NCBI GenBank assembly: GCA_000697055.1 | Contig: JNDT01001169.1 | Span: 1 to 12,027, forward strand | Origin: Saksenaea vasiformis B4078 | Taxonomy: Eukaryota; Mucoromycota; Mucoromycetes; Mucorales; Saksenaeaceae | DNA length: 12,027 nucleotides | Direction of reading: 5' to 3' | Shown: positions 1 to 12,027 of the stretch, one piece after another | How the letters are laid out: every line of letters begins with the position of its first letter | How positions within the stretch are numbered: position 1 is the stretch's first letter | Program-made: the position numbers and the translations under genes | Notes under the pieces: model-generated | What the model saw: only the letters and a program-made list of their open reading frames with translations | What the model was told of the DNA's origin: nothing | Databases searched by the model: none

Positions 1-1136
1 ATAGACGTACCAAGCACCAACTGGATACAAGCATAGAAGAATGTTTGTGAAAAAAGAATAGGCATTGGTTCGCGGTTAGAAGCCAAAACTTGCAGCACAT
101 AATATGAAGCAAAACACTGAGGTTTGACAGCAACTTCTCGCTGAAAATCGACCAAGTCGTCGACATGTCGTATAAATTCAGCACTCTGGTTTGGTGTTAG
201 CTGTAACACGGTGCTTAGGCCAATCTTTCGGACAAATCTCTGGTATTTGTCACCCAATGTATGTTTGAGCCTCTCTTCGAGTGACTCAATATGATATGGG
301 CACTGTCGATGTCTCCGGGAGGCGTGAGGGACTTGATCATCGTAGCACCCTTTTGCAACACAGGTAGGACACCGTTTCGACACGTCTACGTTTTGAACGG
401 CTTCTCTACGCTGACGTTTTCCCCGACGTCTCTCAGCTTTCCCTACTGTTTTCTCAGCCTCAGAAAGCTTTCGCTTACGATGGCTCCTGAATGCTGTATT
501 GTCTACGAATATGTATTAGAAAATAGATAAAATATCATCTATTGTGCTTGCCTTCCTGAGCAGTAGGGTCAAAGTTTTTGGTTAAGGGATATTGCCGGCT
601 TCGGGCATCGCGGTGGCCTAATCTGTGGCATCGCTTGCATACAACTATCAGATAATAAGGGTATGTGAGCTAGCTTTGTAAGGGAAGTATCATGGCATTA
701 CCTTGTTCCTGCTCCTTTGCCTCTTGTTCAAGCTTTTCCGCCTTTTCACGCTTTTCCTGTAGGATTATATCTAAAGGCGACATACCAGAGTAGCGATGTC
801 CGACGGGCTCGGGACGACGGGCAGATTTAGCTGGCAGCAGCTGGCGAGGCGGTACCGGTACGGTGGAGGGACCTGCCTCCGATGTTCCACTATGACTGGC
901 TACGCGGCGGCTCTCTGTGATAGCCGCCTGAAGTTCTATGTCCTCTGTCTCACTTGAAGATGGATTCATAAGCAATGCTGAGTGCTCTTTCATTCCAACT
1001 TACGATGTATCCGGACTGGGCGACTTTTCTGTTATTATCGCTTTCTCTTTCCTAAAAACCTGTTATCAGAGCACGCATTTTCAAACTTAAGTGCATCGCT
1101 ACAAACGTACCCTTTTTGCTTTTTTTTCGGTGGCAT
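1..1136 (-). CDS. Zinc-knuckle mobile-element-type protein, 5' part (probable N-terminal region of a Fanzor-like family member)
   Basis: Partial gene that runs off the left edge. I model five exons: 1136-1111, 1051-1004, 952-702, 644-552 and 502-<1. All junction phases agree and give 306 codons starting MPPKKKQKG. Introns 1 to 3 are GT-AG and intron 4 (551-503) is GC-AG. Residues 25-110 are Ser/Pro- and Glu/Lys-rich and look disordered. A zinc-knuckle-like motif, CKRCHRLGHRD, lies at about 111-121. A strongly basic, NLS-like stretch spans 145-172. A second Cys/His cluster, CPTC at 184-187 followed by His and CP at 207-208, comes next, and a helical region runs to the edge. From memory, this order of knuckles, basic linker and helical domain matches multicopy Mucorales proteins whose C-termini carry a Fanzor/TnpB RuvC domain. 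The catalytic part is outside the window, so the Fanzor link is inference. An internal ATG at 971 lies inside the modelled second intron. It is a less likely start because the upstream exons join in phase. Confidence 0.6.
503..551 (-). other. GC-AG intron in the left-edge gene
   Basis: The exon ends GAAG, followed by a GCAAGC donor, a TTCTAATAC branch-like sequence and a CGTAG acceptor, 49 nt in all. Reading through hits an in-frame TGA, and there is no usable GT donor between the end of the zinc-knuckle exon and that stop. Splicing here joins GAA G to AC and continues the open frame to the window edge. Confidence 0.6.
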
Positions 1137-1169
1137 CCTTTGAAGTGGAAAATAGAATTCTCGAAATAA

Positions 1170-1176
1170 CAGTGTA
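1170..1176. repeat. Possible terminal end of a Tc1/mariner-type element (CAGTG + TA)
   Basis: The plus strand reads ...CGAAATAACAGTG followed by TA. CAGTG next to a TA dinucleotide is a common form for the outer end of a Tc1/mariner terminal inverted repeat with its TA target-site duplication. If real, the element lies to the left and contains the zinc-knuckle gene, whose start codon is about 35 bp inside. The partner end is not visible, so this is only a suggestion. Confidence 0.2.
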
Positions 1177-1185
1177 TTATATATC

Positions 1186-1251
1186 ACAACGTTTCTTTGT
1201 CTGATAAATTTTCCAAATCAAGCTTGTACTCAGCTGACAACATTTCTTTGT
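1186..1251. repeat. Short direct repeat pair
   Basis: A 15-bp sequence, ACAACGTTTCTTTGT, at 1186-1200 recurs with one mismatch at 1237-1251. The pair lies between the possible element end at 1174 and the transposase relic. It could be a remnant of an insertion or chance in AT-rich DNA. Confidence 0.3.
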
Positions 1252-1283
1252 ACTTTATCAATCCCGCCACGCTTTACAGTTTT

Positions 1284-1770
1284 CTACATCAAACTAGCAT
1301 CCGACTGGATTAAATGCAGTAAGCTGATCACTTCATTCTGCAAAGATTGATATTCAGCTATAGGTGCATCTTTGTCTGCTTCATACGCAAGACACTGGAG
1401 ACGAGCACTTGGAGAGTTCTTCATTTTTCTAGACGGCATTTAATCCGTCCAAACTACCTTTTTCCACTTGTTAATGGTCTATTTTTTTTTTAGGGAAGTC
1501 GTCGTTGTAGACTTTGCTTAGATGACTTGTTGACTTTCGACTGGCAGTGCATCTGCAATTTCATTTCATGTTGCGCGGCGACTTCGAATTTTACGCTGCC
1601 ACAGTATTTTTGGCCTTCCAGATCCTTTCGATCGTTCAACCGAACTTCGCGTTTCACAGTTATGCAAGACGTTATAGACAGTTCTTAAATGCGCCGAAGT
1701 TTTGCTTGCAATCTCTTTTGGTTATTACAGCAGCTTGATGAAATCCTGTTTTTCTCTTCATTCGTCAAAT
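1284..1770 (-). pseudogene. Decayed Tc1/mariner-type transposase fragment
   Basis: The minus strand carries the ordered signature of a Tc1/mariner transposase, broken by stops. An LTNEEKNRI-like start lies near 1765. After a one-base frame change comes a first helix-turn-helix with KEIASKTSAHLRTVYNVL. The linker SVERSKGSGRPKI with the typical GRP motif follows, then a second HTH-like stretch, RRAT-stop-NEIADALP. KWKKVVWTD follows (Asp codon at 1443-1445), which matches the motif around the first catalytic Asp of the DDE/D domain. Further down in the same frame is DKDAPI near 1370, resembling the second-Asp motif DNAPIH but without the aligned Asp. At least four in-frame stops are present, and spacings between motifs are far shorter than in a complete enzyme of about 340 aa, so internal deletions have occurred. 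The last part, 1439-1284, is a 51-codon ATG-to-stop stretch that I read as part of this relic and not as a separate gene. Confidence 0.72.
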
Positions 1771-1907
1771 GCACAATACACAGGTTGAATAAGATAACGC
1801 GCTTAACGCGCTGAAATTTTGCCATTTTTTTTGTCAGGTGACTGTACTAACCAAGAGAAATTAATCTTTCTATTCAGAGCATCTACGTACGAATATCAAC
1901 CCACAGC

Positions 1908-1923
1908 GTGTGTGTGTGTGTGT
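1908..1923. repeat. (GT)8 microsatellite
   Basis: Eight uninterrupted GT units in intergenic DNA. No associated gene is visible. Confidence 0.9.
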
Positions 1924-3431
1924 CCTCCAAAGATAGAGCGTAAATACGTCGCAAACAGATGAGATCATAAACCAACCAAAACGTCATGTTTTTTTTTCCT
2001 TTCTAAAGTTTTGAAGGAGACAGGTTGCATTGATATCAGAGTTGGTTCGGCTTATCTAATTCGATTTCTGTATAGCTGTTACGGTTGCACATTCTGTGTC
2101 ACATCCTTCTACGCTTCCTTGAGGACGAAGCGAGGTAATTTAAACTTTGCCCGAAAACCATAACAGCACGGTTCAGCTTGCCAAGAAGAGGCGCGACCTA
2201 CCAGCATCTAGATCTCAGAAAATCACTGCATTTGGAAATCTTTCCATTTTTTTTGGGGTGGTCACAACGGAGAAGTTGCCCTTTATGCTATGAGGCGCGT
2301 ATCGTGTGAATTCTAAAAAAACGTTTCGCAAGCCTTTAAGTAGCTTGGGTATATTGAGGGTGGTATCTATTTTTCTTTCATAGATAGAGAATAGTAAGGT
2401 TTGCTCCATGAGGCACAAAGTGGCACTTGCCCGCAAAAAAATCTTATGCAAAATGATTAAAGTAGCGCATGATGTTTATCGAAACCTTTTACTACCTAAA
2501 GCATACGTGATTGCTTTATCGTCGTCATTCGGTGATCCTCGGAACTGGCATTTTACGTAAGTTTAGATTGCCTGTGAAAACTATATCCTTCCGCGTCCAA
2601 TTGCAAACGCTGAGGTTTACTGTCATACTCCAAGGAATTGATTTGCAGGCAAAAAAAAAAAAAAGATCACATCGCCTGAATTGGATATCCTGAATGCAAG
2701 TGAATACCAATAGTTCAAATTTGAGATGGGTTATAGTATTCTATTACATGGGCATAGTGCAGAAAGTTGTCGGAAGCTTGTTATTCCAAGCAACTTTATC
2801 TGAATCACGATACCCAGCCTAAAGAGTCTCTGAATTTGCAAACTAACAGGTTTGCGCTTAAAAGACATAGTCATTCATCACTCGAAGATCAGATGTTCCC
2901 TTTGCCCTTTATTATTTGTTTTAGTGTGTAAACAAATGACATGCCTTCCGTGGCATTGTTTTCCGTTAGAGCAAAAGATAAGGTCGTGCAGGAATTGGGC
3001 ACGCAGCCCAAGATGACTGGAAATTTTCAACCACAGGTTGAACTAAAACTTGTGCTCGAGCAACAAATGGCGTACTCTGTGCTCCGAATACCCGGCTGAA
3101 CACAAAGGTCAGGTCATGCGAGATTTGCGCTCATTAACAAAGAGAAGAATTTTTGCTACAGGTTCATCCTTCGCTTCATCTAGTATCCTGACGGTGCCCA
3201 TGATCGAGAAACCTTTTCTGCAAAAACCGTACTAACAGTTTTGGATCAAGGTTACAGCACATTGTCTATGTCCTATCCTCTGTTAACCAAAATAAGTTAG
3301 ATAAGGTGTAATGTCTATGTTTCCGGTAGTAGAAATTATCTTGCGGATAAGGCAATACTGGATCGTCAATAGATAGACGATACAGTTCGACTCCGCTCGC
3401 GACCGAAGACTAGTAGAAGAGAGGAATGCTG

Positions 3432-3453
3432 TCTATCTATCTATCTATCTATC
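3432..3453. repeat. (TCTA)n microsatellite
   Basis: Five and a half perfect TCTA units in intergenic DNA. A short related stretch, ATAGATAGACGATA, lies about 60 bp upstream. Confidence 0.9.
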
Positions 3454-4041
3454 ACGTCAGCATATCGTCATTGGCTATACCATTCTTACTTTACAATTTC
3501 ATTCTCCATTGTATTCTATATCTTCTTTTTTCCAGCGTATTCTCTTTTGGATAGGAGACAGGACTTCACTACCACGTGTTGTTACCTTTCGGTTAGACAA
3601 ACCATAGTCTTCTCTCGTTTCACAGTAACAAAGGAAGGATATAAGGTTTTCGATTTTAGAACAACTCTATTTCTTTTGCGTAGGTCAAGAAAAAACGACG
3701 GATCCTTGGCCTCCTAGAAAATGGAGAAGGTCCAACTGTGTTGCCTTCAGTACAACTGGGGATTGGTTTCCAGTATGACAGACTGAGTCAATTTGTGCTA
3801 TCAACGCTACCGAGTTTCGCACGGTTGCCACCGAACCAGAGAGTCTAGAAGGGAAAAAGATGACAGGAAAGGAAAGACCCTCGTAGATCGATATCAAGTG
3901 ACCCAAGCAGTCGAATGGAGACAATCTAAAATAAACTCAGCGCTCCGCTTCGAATTAGGTTGAACACAACGAAAAAAACCAAATTCCTATTTATTTAGTT
4001 CTTCTTTATTTCTTTTTGCTTCTTTTTCTACTCGGTTTATC

Positions 4042-5814
4042 ATGGATAGTATTGGAAGGAAGAGCTGCGAAACATCAACCTGGCGCAGTACTGTCTTTTC
4101 GAGCAGTACAGCTACAACAACTTCCTCCGGCACAGGCGACGAATTAGATGCCACCTTTGTTCTTCCTGATGACAACCCTCCCACCAACCTGACAATGATT
4201 AATACACGCTCCTATAACCAATTACTCGACGACCTCTCCATTATTGACAACATTTACTACACATTAGACCACGACCTAGAATATTTCGGTCAGCTAACCC
4301 GCTTAAAAAGAGGAATCGCTCATCCTTTTTTTTTTTTTAATAGACAAGCAAGTTGTCGATGTCGCTCGAAACGTTGCTCAAAAATTTCGTGCGGCTCAAA
4401 CTATCTATCAACGAGAAAAACAGTATCTAAGCGACCTTCAAACACTGCAAGACGGTTTCCTAATTAAATTACAACAATGGTGTGATCAAGCAACGAATAG
4501 AGAGACTGCTTCTCGCAACAACATCGACCTTGACGTCTTTCATCGTTTTTTTCGCGACATACATCAAATTGCGCAACTCCATCGGACTTTTCTCCAACAA
4601 CTAGCTGATCGGTAAGCGCAAAAACAAAAAAAAAAGGTTGCAGAAATAGTTAACCATAACCATTTAGTCTCCAAATGTGGGGTCCAACCCAACTCATTTC
4701 GGACGTATTTGCCAATCTTGTAAGCGAATCCTTATCGAAAGAGATCCTATATCCATGTGATAAATCTTAACCTGGCCATATTTGATCTAGTATGGAGGCT
4801 TAGCGCTGTATGAACCATTTTTAAAGCAGTACTCGGACTTTCTCGTGACATTGGACAGTTTATGCAGATCGACACGGTTCCTTAAATTTATCGAGGTAAA
4901 CAACAGTTTCCACTTACATAACGCAAAAAGTTTGCTCACGCCTTTTGAATTACAGAGCTATGCAGCTGAAATCAATCGATCGCTTCATACTCTATTTCAC
5001 CATCTTCATGTTCCCATTCCTCATCTCCTGGGATACGCTACCGGGCTGGCACGGATGACACAATGTACGGAGCCTACACACCCTGATTATTATGCCTTAT
5101 CACGCCTAGCGCAAACATTCCAGTCCCGCGAGACGGACGAATGGCAGCCCACGTACGTACTATTACTACTAGTCCCCCGTGTTTTCTTTTTAATAGGAAA
5201 AAAAAAAACTCACCGTAACCCATTCCAGTATAACGGATTGCCAGAACCATCTTCGCGCCTTTGAAGCTTTCCGGTCAATCCAAGGCTGCCCTGCCACGGT
5301 CACACCTCAACGACGCCTGCTTCTCGTCTCGGAAATGATCAAGATCGACACGGCCGATCCAGCATCGACAACCGATGTTCGGACTTATCTCTTATACAAT
5401 GACATGCTTATATTTTGCCGCAAACAAAAGGACAAGAAGGAGGGTGATCGTTATGTATACAAAGGCAGCATTGAGCTCGGTGGTGCTGATATCCGGTTGC
5501 TGCCACCAACGATCGCTGCCAGAATTGCAGAAGCGCGCAGACCCTCCGCCGTAGGCTCGCTCTTCACACGCAAAAATTCAGACGGCGCACCGCCAGCGCC
5601 AGCTGCCTACGGCTTTGATATCTGGATGGCTTCACTGGATCATGACCTTATCATGAGTCCAAATGTGTACGTCTCCGGTACTATCAAGAATCCTATCCGG
5701 AGTAGACATGCGATTCGAACACAGAGCCTAGCTGAACAGAACCTATGGATTACCACCCTGCGAAAGGTGATCCCCACAATCACCACAAAACCTGCTCTGC
5801 TTTTCCAGGTCTAA
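4042..5814 (+). CDS. Rho guanine nucleotide exchange factor (DH-PH protein)
   Basis: Predicted to load GTP onto a Rho/Cdc42/Rac-type GTPase and so act in polarity, actin or cell-wall signalling. Six exons in consistent phase, 4042-4288, 4344-4611, 4668-4719, 4791-4895, 4956-5152 and 5229-5814, give 484 aa. Residues 1-80 are Ser/Thr-rich and low in complexity. The DH domain spans about 101-305: it opens IYQREKQYLSDLQTLQDGF, continues with FFRDIHQIAQLHRTFLQQL and WGPTQLISDVFANL, and ends through the helix containing HPDYYALSRLAQTFQ. A PH domain spans about 315-470 (LLYNDMLIFCRK, and the C-terminal helix Trp in NLWITTLRKV). No other domain is visible, so this is a compact GEF without SH3, PDZ or BAR modules. 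The GTPase partner cannot be told. The first intron (donor GTCAGC, long T run before the acceptor) is the least certain junction. The gene converges with NFS1. Confidence 0.88.
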
Positions 5815-6038: not shown

Positions 6039-7871
6039 TTAATGTTGTGACCATTGGATGGTCTTGAGATCGATTCCATCTTGGACCTAACCGCATTTTG
6101 TTAAGATTGGGGTCAGATGCTCACAATCGAAACTTACCATTTCCCAAAGAGGAGACATATCTCTAAGTTTCTGAACATGTTGCACCACCTTTGAAATAAC
6201 GAAATCGACTTCCTCCTCCGTGGTAAAGCGACCAATACCAAATCGAATAGAGCTATGTGCCATTTCATCATCTGCACCTAAAGCACGCAATACGTAGGAA
6301 GGTTCAAGCGACGCAGAGGTACAAGCAGACCCCGATGATAACGCGATATCTTTAAGAGCCATGAGTAACGATTCACCCTCCACGTAGGCAAATGATAAGT
6401 TCACACAACCTAAACCAAAGAACGTTAGTTTCTCGTTCCCTCTCTTTCTCTCTCTTTTTCTTTTTCGCAACTTTACCGGGAAAGCAATGGTCAGGATCAC
6501 CATTTCGAGTCACTTGTTCCACCTTGGCTGTGATACCATCAACTAAACGCTTCGACAGTTTCGCAATGCGTTCATGGTCATACTAGAAAGAGATTGCACA
6601 ATTTCGTCAATCACCGTCACACGCTCGACCCCTCTCTCAGATTTTACTACTTACTTGCATTTCTTCAGCAGCCACCTTGCATGCGGCACCAAGACCGACT
6701 GCTAGCGGAGTAGGAACAGTGCCGCTTCGAATACCACGTTCCTGGCCACCACCGCTTTGAATGGCCTCCAAGCGGACTCTCGGTCTACGTCGGACATAAA
6801 TGGCACCCACACCTTTAGGACCATAGACTTTGTGTCCAGAGATGCTCAGCAAATCAATATTCATCTTATTCACGTCAATTGGCATCTTGCCAACGGCTTG
6901 GGCAGCATCTGTATGGAAAAACACCTTCTTGGCTCGGCAAATCTTGCCAATTTCTTCAACTGGTTGAATCACACCGATTTCGTTATTCACTGTCATGATG
7001 GAAACAAGGGCTGTATCCGGTCGAATGGCCTCCTCGAGCAATTTCAAATCCACGATACCACTTTGTTGTACAGGAAGATATGTCACCTCAAATCCTTCTT
7101 CTTGCAGAACACGGCATGAATCCAGGACACATTTATGTTCCTAAAGCATTACAGATTGAAATATGAACGATGACATCGCTTCCAGAAGCCCAAAAAAAAA
7201 AAAAAAGAAACGTACAGTCTGGGTTGTAATGATATGCTTCTTCTTGTTTTTGTAGAAGCGGGCGACACCCTTGATACTCAAATTGTTTGACTCGGTAGCA
7301 CCAGAGGTAAAGATGATTTCTTTGGGGTCAGCACCAATAAGCTTTGCCACTTGCTGTTTTAAAAGAAAGGTGTGTTAAGCCATTGACCGAAGACCCGCGC
7401 ACAATCCAATCATTATTTTTATTTTTTTTTCCCCACGCCATCACAGCCCAATTTACCTCACGAGCAGTTTCTACGGCATTTTCGCTCTCCCAGCCGTAAG
7501 GATGGGTTCGAGAATGTGGGTTACCATAGAGTTCAGTTAGATAGGGTAACATGGCGTCGAGCACTCTAGGATCCATGGGAGAAGTGGCCTGCATGTCGAG
7601 ATAAATGGGACGGTTGGGGTCCTTGACCGACTGGCTTTGGAAGCCAAGGGAATCTGTTCCACGTGATGGTTGGTTATATTTTTTTTCTATTCCTCGGTTG
7701 CCGATCGACATGAAGCAGCTTACCTGCAGAGGGTGTGATCGTCTCCACAGCCGCAGCCTGCTTTGTTGCTGCACCCATGGAGAAGGCACGTGTGGCTACA
7801 GGTACCATGGACCTTCTTGTGGCGGCGATAACAGTGCGTTGTTGGAGTGTACGTTGTAAGGTTCTCAACAT
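6039..7871 (-). CDS. NFS1: Mitochondrial cysteine desulfurase
   Basis: PLP enzyme that removes sulfur from L-cysteine as an enzyme-bound persulfide for Fe-S cluster assembly and tRNA thiolation; in fungi it acts mainly in the mitochondrial matrix with Isd11 and the Isu scaffold. Seven exons in phase (7871-7724, 7653-7457, 7353-7216, 7140-6655, 6582-6477, 6409-6138, 6086-6039) give 464 aa, a normal family length. The N-terminus, about 1-35, is Arg-rich without acidic residues, as in a mitochondrial presequence. Family motifs include [50 protein letters not shown], and [10 protein letters not shown] with the PLP lysine at about 265. The catalytic-loop motif is [21 protein letters not shown] with Cys at about 388. 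The C-terminus, ending [10 protein letters not shown], is the conserved scaffold-interacting tail. An in-frame ATG 81 bp upstream would put non-presequence residues in front, so I prefer 7871. All key residues are intact. Confidence 0.96.
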
Positions 7872-8603: not shown

Positions 8604-9903
8604 ATGCCTCCACACAATCATGCCTCCACCGATTATATAGAACTATCTACGACGAACTATGACGAAGAAGTTGCTCTTACAGAAACAAGCTTTCAGCAGG
8701 ACGCGAAAGAGCTCATTGTAGACGACGGTCATCGTGATTCATTCGACGATCACCACAGTAGTCGTCGTCATTCTCTCTCTGCGCCACTACTAGAACCCAT
8801 TGTTCCACACGAAGAAAAGAGAGATTTAACCATAAAAGCACTGGCTTTTGAGGTCAGTATGCGGATCATTGATTAGACGCGCATAAAATCTTATGGATCA
8901 TCTTCTATTTATATGGCGCAGGCCCTTCCGTCCCTTATTGTATCATTAGTAGGACTTGTCTTGGCAGGTCTCTTGATGGATGAATTTCAGGAACGTAAAC
9001 CTAAAAAAAAATTGGCAACATGACACTATCTGCTTACACGTCATTTACAGCAATGGGATATCTTTATCAAAATGCCTGAACTTTTTATCCTATTGCCGAT
9101 TCTATTAAATCTCAAGGGGAATCTGGAAATGAATCTAGCCGCACGATTTTCAACTTCGGTAAGCAATTTTTTGGGAATGGCATTTAGTGAAACTTTAATC
9201 AAATGTCCGCATCAGGCGAATCTCGGCGAGCTAGATTACAGCCCGACGAGAAGATCCCTCGTGATTGGCAACCTTGCGCTATTACAGGTACAGGCACTTG
9301 TGTCCGGTGCCATTGCCGGATTCGCCTCCTTTACCTTGGGTCTTCTTACTCGTCCTGGCATCAATACTACCTATTACGACGGTATCTATATGACAACATG
9401 CTCTGTCATCTCCGCCTCCCTTTCTAGTGCTATCCTCGGCATTTTCATGTGCGGACTTGTTCTACTGAGTAGGAAACTCAATATCAATCCCGGTAGGACA
9501 AAGCGATATATAAAAAACCAGAAACTTAACCCAAGATCGACTAGACAATATTGCTTGTCCACTAGCCTCTGCGACAGGTGACATTGTCACACTTGTACTA
9601 CTTGCTGGGTCTGCATACGTCCTACAGACAACTCCAGGTAAGAAGAAGAAGAAGAATCTGCAGAAACAAAAGTAACACAGATGGATGGCTGACTGACTTA
9701 ACCGATGGATTGATCTTCCGACAGACAGCTTGCTCAATACCTTTGTACTCCTAAGCATGCTTGCCTTTGTACCAGTATTTGGGTTCATTGTTTGGCGAAA
9801 CAAACACGTGAAGGATTTGCTATATGTCGGATGGACGCCGCTTGTTGTGGCTATGGTCATTTCGAGGTAAGACAAATTTAGACAGGGTGATACGAGAAAA
9901 AAA

Positions 9904-9935
<32 letters not shown>

Positions 9936-10589
9936 CCTGACGTATTACTATTATTACTATTATTACACCATCCAGTCTGGCCGGTATTCTTTTGGAGACA
10001 TACGTTGAAGAATACAACGGTGTAGCTCTACTGACACCCGTACTGATCGGACTAGCCGGCAATCTGGGATCTATCTATGCATCACGCATCAGTACCTCCC
10101 TTCACGCGGAAACAAAAGAAAGTTATCACACGGTAGAATGGGCTCTCCTTGCCATGAATATCCCGCTTCAAATTGTGTTCCTTACCGTCATCTGGGCTTT
10201 CGGCATGGGCCATCTGGTTTTCAATAGTTGGTTTTTCTTTGCTTACTTTGTTGTATCGATGGCCACTGTAAGTTCTCGCCCTCCCCAACCGTCGAAACGC
10301 AAAACATCTCTCTCTCTCTTTCTAAACTTTGTTTCCTTTTTAGACATGGGTATGCCTAAAGATCGGCAAGTACATGACGTTGGGATTTTGGAAAATGGGC
10401 TACGATCCCGACAACTATGTCATTCCCTATTTGTAAGCGAACAGAGTTATTATTTCCGACGCATTGACTAATATCTATGACAGAACGGCATCTATCGATG
10501 TGATAGGCACTGTTCTGCTTGTCTCGTCCATTTCATGGCTGACTTCTTCCGGTGCCAATAATATGACCCGGAGGGTTGGTCGGCCCTAA
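8604..10589 (+). CDS. SLC41/MgtE-type divalent cation (Mg2+) transporter
   Basis: Integral membrane carrier predicted to move Mg2+, probably at the plasma membrane or an organelle. Nine exons, 8604-8852, 8922-8990, 9051-9158, 9216-9492, 9536-9637, 9725-9866, 9976-10267, 10344-10432 and 10484-10589, give 477 aa. Residues 1-75 are hydrophilic, acidic and His/Ser-rich, and are likely cytosolic. Two homologous membrane halves follow. The first, starting at about 84, has ELFILLPILLNLKGNLEMNL (116-135) and ARFST (137-141), running on to ANLGELD across an intron. The second has LTPVLIGLAGNLGSIYASRI (335-354) followed by STSLH. This pair of L-x-GNL-x-x-x-x-x-R-(F/I)ST signatures is the hallmark of SLC41/MgtE membrane domains. 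INPDRLDNIACPLASATGD near 233 and DPDNYVIPYL near 437 also fit the family. The bacterial MgtE regulatory N and CBS domains are absent, as expected for eukaryotic SLC41. Seven introns are GT-AG; the second (8991-9050) is not. Confidence 0.92.
8991..9050 (+). other. Non-canonical (GA-AG) or mutated intron in the SLC41-type gene
   Basis: Family alignment by eye requires DEFQ (exon ending CAG at 8990) to join QWDIF (exon starting CAA at 9051). The intron would then begin GAACGTAAAC and end TTTACAG. The only GT nearby, at 8995-8996, gives a wrong phase and an early stop. Adding one T after the first G would restore a GTAACG donor, so a one-base deletion, natural or in the assembly, is the simplest explanation. 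Confidence 0.6.
9893..9965 (+). repeat. GA-rich and TTA-type repeats inside an intron
   Basis: Within the 109-nt sixth intron of the SLC41-type gene, a purine block of GAGA/GAAA units (about 9893-9935) is followed by TTACTA-type repeats (9944-9965). This explains why the intron is longer than its neighbours. Confidence 0.8.
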
Positions 10590-11232
10590 ACAATATACAC
10601 AAAAGAGGACCTGCCGAATCATCCGCATGATAGCAAACCCTCTCATTTATACTCTCCTTCGAAGCAGGTCTTCCCTTCCCATTTATTATTATGTGTTACG
10701 TGTCATATATTCTCAAGCTGTCATATTAAAAGAAAAAAACGGAACCATTCTTTGCGTCAAAACTAAATATTTATGTTTGCGTTGCGCTGAGAAGTAAGTA
10801 CATTCCTTCTTTCTCAAGAGATTTTGGGGGGGAGAAGAGCAGCGAGAAAATAGTACGTCGTGTGCAGATTTTCAATCCTCAATAAAATCAAGTTCAAGGT
10901 TATATACTATAAAGAGGGTTGACACCTGTACGTTGCTCGATTTCTTGCGAAATAGGACATCCTTTCCGTATAGATTAGCGTAAAAATTGGTTCAATAAGC
11001 TGTATCACGGCGGACAATGTACTCTATGTTATTGTCTAAAGGGCAAGCAATGCAGATTTTTTTTTCTGTACTCAAGCATCCAGCCAACCAAAAAACAGTC
11101 AAGTAAGTTCCCGGTCCAGTGCACTTAAGTCACGGAGAAGTATGACGTAAATTTCTTTTCAACGTGACAGCAATTCTTACCTGCCCGAAGACAGCACACC
11201 AGGTGCCTAACGAGAGGCTTGTTGGCAGTTCC
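10590..11232. other. Intergenic region between the SLC41-type gene and the Fanzor-like gene
   Basis: About 640 bp with no coding signal; the longest open stretch, 73 codons, is unremarkable and overlaps the end of the SLC41-type gene. The left part should be the SLC41-type 3' UTR. The right part, about 11030-11232, lies just past the stop of the minus-strand Fanzor-like gene, where the guide (omega) RNA and element end would be expected if it follows the known layout. A short palindrome, CACCAGGTG, sits at 11198-11206. Confidence 0.45.
10881..10886 (+). terminator. Candidate polyadenylation signal for the SLC41-type gene
   Basis: A plus-strand AATAAA lies 292 bp past the stop codon. The distance is long for a compact fungal gene, so a nearer non-canonical signal is also possible. 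Confidence 0.25.
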
Positions 11233-12027
11233 TTACTGCCTAGCCCCGATATGGGGCGGTTGTTGCTGCTGCTGCGGTCGTTGTAATGAGAGGGGTCTTG
11301 ACTCTAGCTGATGTCCATTTTCCATGTAGGCAACTAGAATTCTTATGTTTCTTCCCGCGTTCACATCACGGTTCCAGAACTATACATTTAATGAGAACAG
11401 AACAACAGATATAAGAACACTTACTAATGGTCTGAGAGCTTGATCATCGGCAGCTTGTCCCAACTGATGGTGGTGGCACACCTTGATCGGATACACGCTG
11501 CTGCGATTATCTGTAATGGCTATATTAAAAGATCCAGTTAGAGTAACAAGTATGCAGCCTGATATTTACTTGCCTAATGGTTGAAGCTCTGGGCATTGTG
11601 ATGTCGGATGCATCGTTCGTTCGTTCTCATTAAGACAATATCGTTTGGCTCTCCCAGCCCCGACAGACCGAACTACTTTGGTTCTATTGATGAAGTCAAT
11701 TTTCGAATATTTCCAGCGGTCTGATACATACTCGTGTGGACATCGTGCTGTTGGTGCTCCGTGTCATGTTCGCAGTTTGAATACACCTTGCTAGTGTTGT
11801 ATTCATCGACCAGAACAACGAGAGCGTGCCTTGCGAGAACTTGCCGGAATGTCTAGTATTTGGAATGCGTGAGACTTGTCTATAAGAACTTGTAAATGCT
11901 CACCTTCACTGGAACTGGACCCTGGCCCCGCATTGTAGGTCGCAAATCCGCGTCACCATACGCAATGATTGCTGGCTGTTCCGGGCGAGGATGTTGTCGG
12001 CGGGCCTTACGACGGCGATGCTTCCGC
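11233..12027 (-). CDS. Fanzor-like (eukaryotic TnpB-related) RuvC nuclease, C-terminal part, possibly degenerate
   Basis: Partial gene entering from the right edge. Visible exons are >12027-11904, 11852 to about 11574, 11519-11425 and 11379-11233 (stop TAA). The first gives a basic stretch, then IIAYGDADLRPTMRGQGPVP, matching the G-D-G/A...RG...P.P segment ahead of RuvC-II. The second gives LVVLVDEYNTSK, the RuvC-II motif with its catalytic Glu codon at 11802-11804. The last begins FWNRDVNAGRNIRILVAYM, the RuvC-III motif with its Asp codon at 11365-11367, and ends in a Gln/Pro-rich tail. Relatives are RNA-guided DNA endonucleases carried by transposons. Oddities: the first zinc-ribbon Cys is Tyr (KVYSNCEH), and the second exon changes frame between about 11762 and 11785. 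Downstream of this, the frame with YSKIDFINRTKVV...KRYCLNENERT is open and joins in phase, by a GC-AG intron, to the exon with VYPIKVCHHHQ. Either a frameshift has occurred or an intron is unrecognised. RuvC-I and the N-terminus lie outside the window. Confidence 0.7.
11520..11573 (-). other. GC-AG intron in the Fanzor-like gene
   Basis: A CCATTAG|GCAAGT donor, a CTCTAAC branch-like site and an AATATAG acceptor bound a 54-nt intron. The GC donor gives phase 1 and joins two open exons (G + CC = Ala). The adjacent GT (AA|GTAAAT) gives a stop within a few codons. Confidence 0.55.

Follow-up and report, generated by a model that had tools for sequence, protein, structure and literature searches.

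Fanzors are eukaryotic RNA-guided nucleases and candidate genome editors. The paper on the Fanzor1 transposons of the Mucorales is said to be by Bao and Jurka. Fanzors in transposons of these fungi have been known since 2013, and the sections of that report on which we draw describe two of the elements, MCi-2 and MCi-5, as being without recognizable TIRs (PMC3627910). According to the part of the SpuFz1 and GtFz1 study used here, the omega-RNA of SpuFz1 lies between the stop codon and the right inverted repeat, with the guide extending into the flank, and the last 17 codons of GtFz1 are overlapped by its omega-RNA (PMC10432273). At the protein level, Fanzors are distinguished by a DPG at RuvC-I and by a Glu that has moved to six residues before the zinc finger (PMC10711439).

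The window, the whole stretch of 12,027 nucleotides analysed here, is identical with contig C104 and ends inside such a gene: positions 11119-12027 of the minus strand hold the 3' end of a Fanzor gene that is truncated by the contig end. We consider it highly probable that a decayed member of a multi-copy transposon family, encoding a Fanzor of the Fanzor1 type, has its 3' end at this locus. The initial annotation presented the locus as the best candidate in this stretch for a little-described system, a description that does not suit this well described kind of system (PMC3627910, PMC10432273, PMC10711439, PMC11423790). What is new is this particular Fanzor family, its size in the genome and a scaffold candidate with the stop codon in a loop.

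The window copy and its relatives in the genome

As the contig consists of nothing but the window, there is no further sequence on the right, and the missing parts of the gene were taken from other copies. The coding features in the window and the end of the element are as follows:

11904 to 12027, minus strand: 3' part of Fanzor exon 13, truncated by the contig end, RKHRRRKARRQHPRPEQPAIIAYGDADLRPTMRGQGPVPVK; placed by translation and by a splice border common to copies
11574 to 11852, minus strand: Fanzor exon 14, LVVLVDEYNTSKV..., with the rearranged RuvC-II Glu codon at 11804-11802; placed by translation and copy alignment
11425 to 11519, minus strand: Fanzor exon 15, ITDNRSSVYPIKVCHHHQLGQAADDQALRPL, with a candidate second zinc knuckle (CHHH); placed by copy alignment
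11233 to 11379, minus strand: Fanzor exon 16, FWNRDVNAGRNIRILVAYMENGHQ...IGARQ*, with the RuvC-III Asp codon at 11367-11365 and the stop codon at 11235-11233; placed by translation and copy alignment
11116 to 11133, minus strand: right end of the element, GTGACTTAAGTGCAC(TGG), beyond which the sequence varies between copies

The stop codon of exon 16 is TAA in the window. Three strings that had been picked out in the initial annotation stand on the minus strand in the order given there: IIAYGDADLRPTMRGQGPVPVK, in a frame from 12026 within the exon ending at 11904, then LVVLVDEYNTSKV in the exon at 11852-11574 and FWNRDVNAGRNI in the exon at 11379-11233. They sit on separate exons, the borders of which are common to other copies. 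This order is not a product of chance, since 23 other places in the genome match and a Fennellomyces protein has counterparts of the first two strings, likewise one after the other. Between exons 14 and 15 lies an intron (window 11573-11520) with an apparent GC-AG border and a GCAAGT donor, as seen with 16 copies aligned there.

Other genes lie elsewhere in the window. The mitochondrial cysteine desulfurase NFS1 is encoded at 6637-7795 (-), with PF00266 matched at E 7.1e-47 by one exon; its best identity among the 120 proteins listed is 86%, with Rhizopus microsporus first. A probable Rho exchange factor is represented by its PH domain at 5197-5814 (+; PF22697, E 3.4e-7), and an MgtE/SLC41-type transporter is found at 9024-9581 (+; PF01769, E 9.8e-9). 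Short repeats beside the element (10862-10922 and 10969-11006) have nine matches elsewhere at 81-95% and are perhaps a small transposon.

We searched the genome, 38.7 Mb in 666 contigs, with searches that score best candidates only, and the copy counts are lower bounds. Positions 11180-12027 match 24 places including the window at 85-100% DNA identity (85-99% for the 23 others); further matches comprise 16 places at 68-72% and five short pieces, and another query returned one additional place of the 68-72% kind. Comparison of longer stretches from the copies delimits a mobile element of about 5.0 kb (about 564-5530 in oriented L030) with a sharp right end, and several contigs terminate within it, as the window does. 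Common ends, differing flanks and the 24 places speak for carriage by a transposable element. The left end contains CGATTT in 12 of 21 stretches, mostly followed by ACTTATGTCACAAACTTTTATTCGG or a shortened form of it, and is shorter or different in the others; L072 is without the right end. Two copies, L034 and L044, are alike with L030 only from oriented position 1484 onward and in a segment of about 80 bases that is inverted, so the 5' part of the element is variable.

No common target-adjacent motif was seen by eye in the left flanks of the element, and no transposase of proven relation to it was found. Insertion may proceed by a MULE, a Crypton-like or another route. The 5' part of L030 contains a SWIM zinc-finger ORF (L030:8185-8613, +) that lies on the opposite strand to the Fanzor and diverges from it; it scores 18.5 bits, below the cut-off of 19.6. 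We rejected the idea that this ORF belongs to a complete MULE transposase, as the two neighbouring ORFs tested on the same strand match nothing at E up to 0.1. The SWIM-bearing 5' part is also found near Fanzors of family B, at a distance of about 5 kb (C272, C606 and C233). At a separate locus, L048 (C602:305500-314575), a MULE transposase (PF10551, E 2.7e-22, with SWIM in the next ORF) stands on the 5' side of a Fanzor tail resembling family B; two intervening ORFs look by eye like a cysteine protease and have no Pfam match.

A 16-exon Fanzor protein under purifying selection

We built a 16-exon gene model on copy L030 and mapped each of its exons onto the copies, 19 in number with that of the window. 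A frame-breaking length change or a stop was detected in 15 of the 19, a count to be read with the proviso that the -12 in exon 3 (L036, L037) and the +2 in exon 14 (L036, L037, L042, L043) may be splice differences of A2 and not lesions. Copy L032 has exons 2-16 uninterrupted, in frame and without a stop, with exon 1 truncated by its contig end, and its protein is at least 836 residues long. Judged from their coding sequence, there are relatives of the window copy at other places in the genome that seem able to function.

In the window copy, exon 14 lacks 10 bases relative to the model, which leaves the second half frameshifted, and the first Cys of the zinc finger is replaced by Tyr (TSKVYSNC, codon 11783-11781); no damage is seen in exons 15 and 16 or in the 3' stretch from there to the right end. 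With the frameshift and the lost zinc ligand, this copy is dead, unable to encode a working protein and hence to make the enzyme. The initial reading of the locus is supported, with the correction that the copy in the window is dead. The lesions could in principle be errors of assembly, given that the copy lies at a contig end and that other contigs also stop within the same repeat. However, its exons 15 and 16 agree base for base with other copies (0/95 differences from L032 in exon 15, 0/147 from L047 in exon 16), and its right-end junction has the form seen in other copies, so we regard an assembly error as unlikely.

The catalytic motifs of the family are well preserved. The RuvC-I motif GVDP is in frame in 11 of the 12 copies that reach exon 9, with the G of DPG completed across the splice (GVDPG in L032); of 11 copies aligned at the donor of exon 9, 8 have GT, the exceptions being L030, L039 and L040. 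The rearranged RuvC-II Glu is located exactly six residues before the CxxC (E-YNTSKV-C) in 16 of 17 family A copies, L035 having Gly, and the RuvC-III Asp, of the NRD type, is present in all 18 family A copies that extend this far; in family B, locus C445 has a His at this position. Of 17 family A copies, 16 have a Cys as the first residue of the first CxxC knuckle, and the exception, with Tyr, is the window copy. The candidate second knuckle reads CHHH, not CxxC, and the ligands of a C4 finger are not assignable by sequence. L032 fits the Fanzor/TnpB pattern D-X(125,275)-[TS][TS]xx-zinc finger-X(5,50)-RD with D476, T678 S679 K680 V681, C682 and ...FWNRD, with 201 residues between D476 and T678. 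The family has both the DPG and the Glu six residues before the zinc finger by which Fanzors are distinguished (PMC10711439).

The initial annotation took the locus for a present or recent RuvC nuclease of the Fanzor type on a mobile element, a reading to be given up if no RuvC-I Asp or bridge-helix region lay upstream. The copies uphold it: they display the RuvC-I Asp, the Glu and the RuvC-III Asp, and copies other than that of the window have GVDP preceded by about 475 residues of protein. The profile search that had been proposed as a check gave as the best Pfam match PF07282, the TnpB/Cas12f zinc domain (E 1.6e-5, 25.4 bits against a curated cut-off of 26.3). The piece of exon 14 at window 11679-11840 scores 19.0 bits with the same profile (E 0.0016), and other places in the same genome exceed the cut-off. 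With the NCBIfam model guided_TnpB, exon 14 of L030 scores 13.4 bits against 100. A MULE or other transposase identity for the motif-bearing protein was tried and rejected, since the matches up to E 1 include no transposase family.

Several families with at least 137 PF07282 places in total are present in this genome. Other Fanzor/TnpB-like families (L001-L008) carry NEAYTSKSCTCC...DRDLNGARN, NEHNTSQVCSRC...WQRDINASRN and VDEYCTSQVCSKC...WQRDHNASQN.

The only PDB match of the family protein is a weak one, to Fanzor1 of Parasitella parasitica (E 0.017 for the whole protein and 0.0055 for its C-terminal half), and the protein is weakly indicated by this likeness, and by its length of at least 836 residues, to be of the Fanzor1 type. 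A PDB search with a profile of three sequences gave no match, probably because two of the sequences are without the C-terminus; a PDB search with P0001, a protein of Fennellomyces sp. T-0311, also gave none. Residues 3-687 of L032, or 82% of the query, align with P0001 at 36% identity, and the splicing as far as exon 14 is supported by this alignment. Fanzor homologues were found in Fennellomyces and Rhizopus, and no IMG/VR contigs encoding close relatives of P0001 were found. Together with the NFS1 identities, the homologues place the host most probably in the Mucoromycota.

For six pairs of subfamily A and A2 copies, dN/dS is 0.06-0.10 at a dS of 0.66-1.06; across all 12 pairs computed the range is 0.06-0.30. 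These values leave out exons that differ in length and any codon with a stop. Purifying selection has kept the protein during the life of the family, while single copies decay.

A common hairpin element at the right end

The subfamilies have in common a hairpin element that extends across and behind the stop codon and adjoins the right end. In the window it is made up of the following parts:

11119 to 11257, minus strand: candidate omega-RNA scaffold, which takes in the last codons and the stop and reaches the right end; from conservation, hairpins and folding
11243 to 11257, minus strand: hairpin H1, GCCCC/GGGGC (GCACC/GGTGC in family B); from paired changes
11224 to 11240, minus strand: hairpin H2, GGCAG-TAAGGAA-CTGCC, with the stop codon in the loop; from paired changes
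11205 to 11218, minus strand: hairpin H3, GCCT-CTCGTT-AGGC, core of a pattern with 50 sites in the genome; from pattern search
11099 to 11115, minus strand: first host DNA past the right end, predicted position of the guide, by analogy with the part of PMC10432273 outlined above

Similarity between families A and B persists at the 3' end of the gene and directly after it, although their DNA is otherwise about 70% alike. A 21-base core pattern, allowing up to two mismatches, returned 50 sites in the genome and 1 for a reversed control; chance accounts for one or more of the 50, among them L098, which is without related flank and was excluded from the RNA alignment. The arms of H2 are GGCCG/CGGCC in family B and GACAG/CTGTC in one of the two distinct family C sequences. 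Across 23 distinct sequences, H2 pairs in 114 of 115 cells, where the patterns used for sorting A and B had fixed the 5' arm and left only the 3' arm free, and H3, which is nearly invariant, pairs in 91 of 92. H1 pairs in 99 of 105 cells (21 sequences), with its registers (a loop of 5 in A and 7 in B) and the family C register set by hand. The decayed L094, with arms that do not fit, was omitted from these per-hairpin counts and kept in the covariation count.

In the covariation count, in which the two C rows are out of register, 91.7% of cells are paired, against 6-42% in slid versions. The covariation score is 0.151, compared to 0.081 in shuffles, a difference to be read in the knowledge that relatedness inflates such scores. 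The fourth pair of H2 is A-U in 12 sequences and C-G in 11. Pairs with changes on both sides are not in excess (1, against a shuffle mean of 1.3), and a fair count of independent paired-change events in the hairpins is two or three. Relative to shuffles, three family A RNAs fold with z of -1.95 to -2.59 and one family B RNA with z of 0.19. Rfam gave no match up to E 1 for window 10000-12027, and the predicted guide position at 11099-11115 has no second match at E ≤ 0.001. The hairpins, which keep their pairing from one subfamily to another, are on this comparative evidence a candidate guide-RNA scaffold.

Proposed mechanism and relation to described systems

Purifying selection on the protein would also be expected of a Fanzor-derived gene with a host function and without RNA guidance, whose 3' hairpins would be regulatory elements of the 3' UTR. 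We find this very unlikely: the high copy number, the differing flanks, the decayed copies and the hairpin at the edge fit a mobile element, and the hairpins are located where the omega-RNAs of known Fanzors lie. Hardly credible is an ordinary RNase H-fold transposase, such as that of a MULE, which is merely Fanzor-like: the SWIM ORF in the 5' part (SWIM being a domain of MULE transposases) and the MULE transposase upstream of the Fanzor tail in L048 would suit it, but the SWIM ORF is separate and on the other strand, and the D-E-D protein has PF07282 as its best Pfam match, a Fanzor1 as its only PDB match and, as Fanzors do, a Glu placed exactly six residues ahead of CxxC.

In the preferred reading, that of a Fanzor transposon, the Fanzor protein would bind the hairpin RNA as its omega-RNA, and the 3' extension of this RNA into the host DNA beside each insertion would be the guide. 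The enzyme would then cut DNA matching the flank, which would be the empty site on the sister or homologous chromosome, and repair would recopy the element and keep it in place, as proposed for TnpB and Fanzor. As its RNA part and right end are intact, the window copy could still make a guide RNA, and could supply it to enzyme from other copies. We tentatively suggest, as a possibility, that dead copies keep the omega-RNA unit and form a distributed set of guides served in trans by a few intact enzymes, so that at single loci the RNA would stay under selection for longer than the protein. If true, a scaffold that folds through the enzyme's stop codon would couple translation and guide-RNA processing. 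The subfamilies are near enough for the scaffold to be read by paired changes and distant enough to reveal selection on the enzyme; the service of a Fanzor to its transposon, and the possible guiding of working copies by broken ones, are testable in one fungus.

Among the described proteins, PpFz1 (Parasitella parasitica Fanzor1, PDB 9cf0; PMC11423790) has IDEFRTSSFCPKC aligned with VDEYNTSKVCSNC of this family and LWNRDQAAVLNFRKIL (LWNRD) aligned with FWNRDVNAGRNMRRIL; the second stretch alone is far from significant, and the E value of the match with the C-terminal half is only 0.0055. P0001 (BJV82DRAFT_676465 of Fennellomyces sp. T-0311) resembles the family here in DPG, in the segment IAYGDADLR and in DEYRTSKVC. 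Its record, a hypothetical protein without a Fanzor name, stops just past the first zinc knuckle and before the third string.

Among the described elements, MCi-2, MCi-4, MCi-5, ROr-4 and PBl-3 of Mucor, Rhizopus and Phycomyces, compared here by description, also encode a Fanzor1-type protein in multi-copy elements, as far as the cited sections go (PMC3627910). The same sections give MCi-2 variable 5' parts and a constant Fanzor-coding 3' part, which is also the arrangement of L034 and L044 relative to L030. One MCi-2 subfamily has a partial Crypton transposase, whereas the 5' part of L030 has the SWIM ORF; and MCi-2 subfamilies have target duplications of 11-12 bp, whereas none were seen by eye in five copies here (L030, L031, C272, C606 and C233) (PMC3627910, sections cited). 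The SpuFz1 elements, in the part of their report used here, have inverted repeats of 30 nt; those here are short and imperfect, the left end resembling the inverted A2 right end at 13 of 17 positions by eye (PMC10432273). The candidate scaffold occupies the same position as the omega-RNAs of SpuFz1 and GtFz1 described there, and its hairpins, like the omega-RNA of GtFz1, also overlap the last codons of the gene (PMC10432273).
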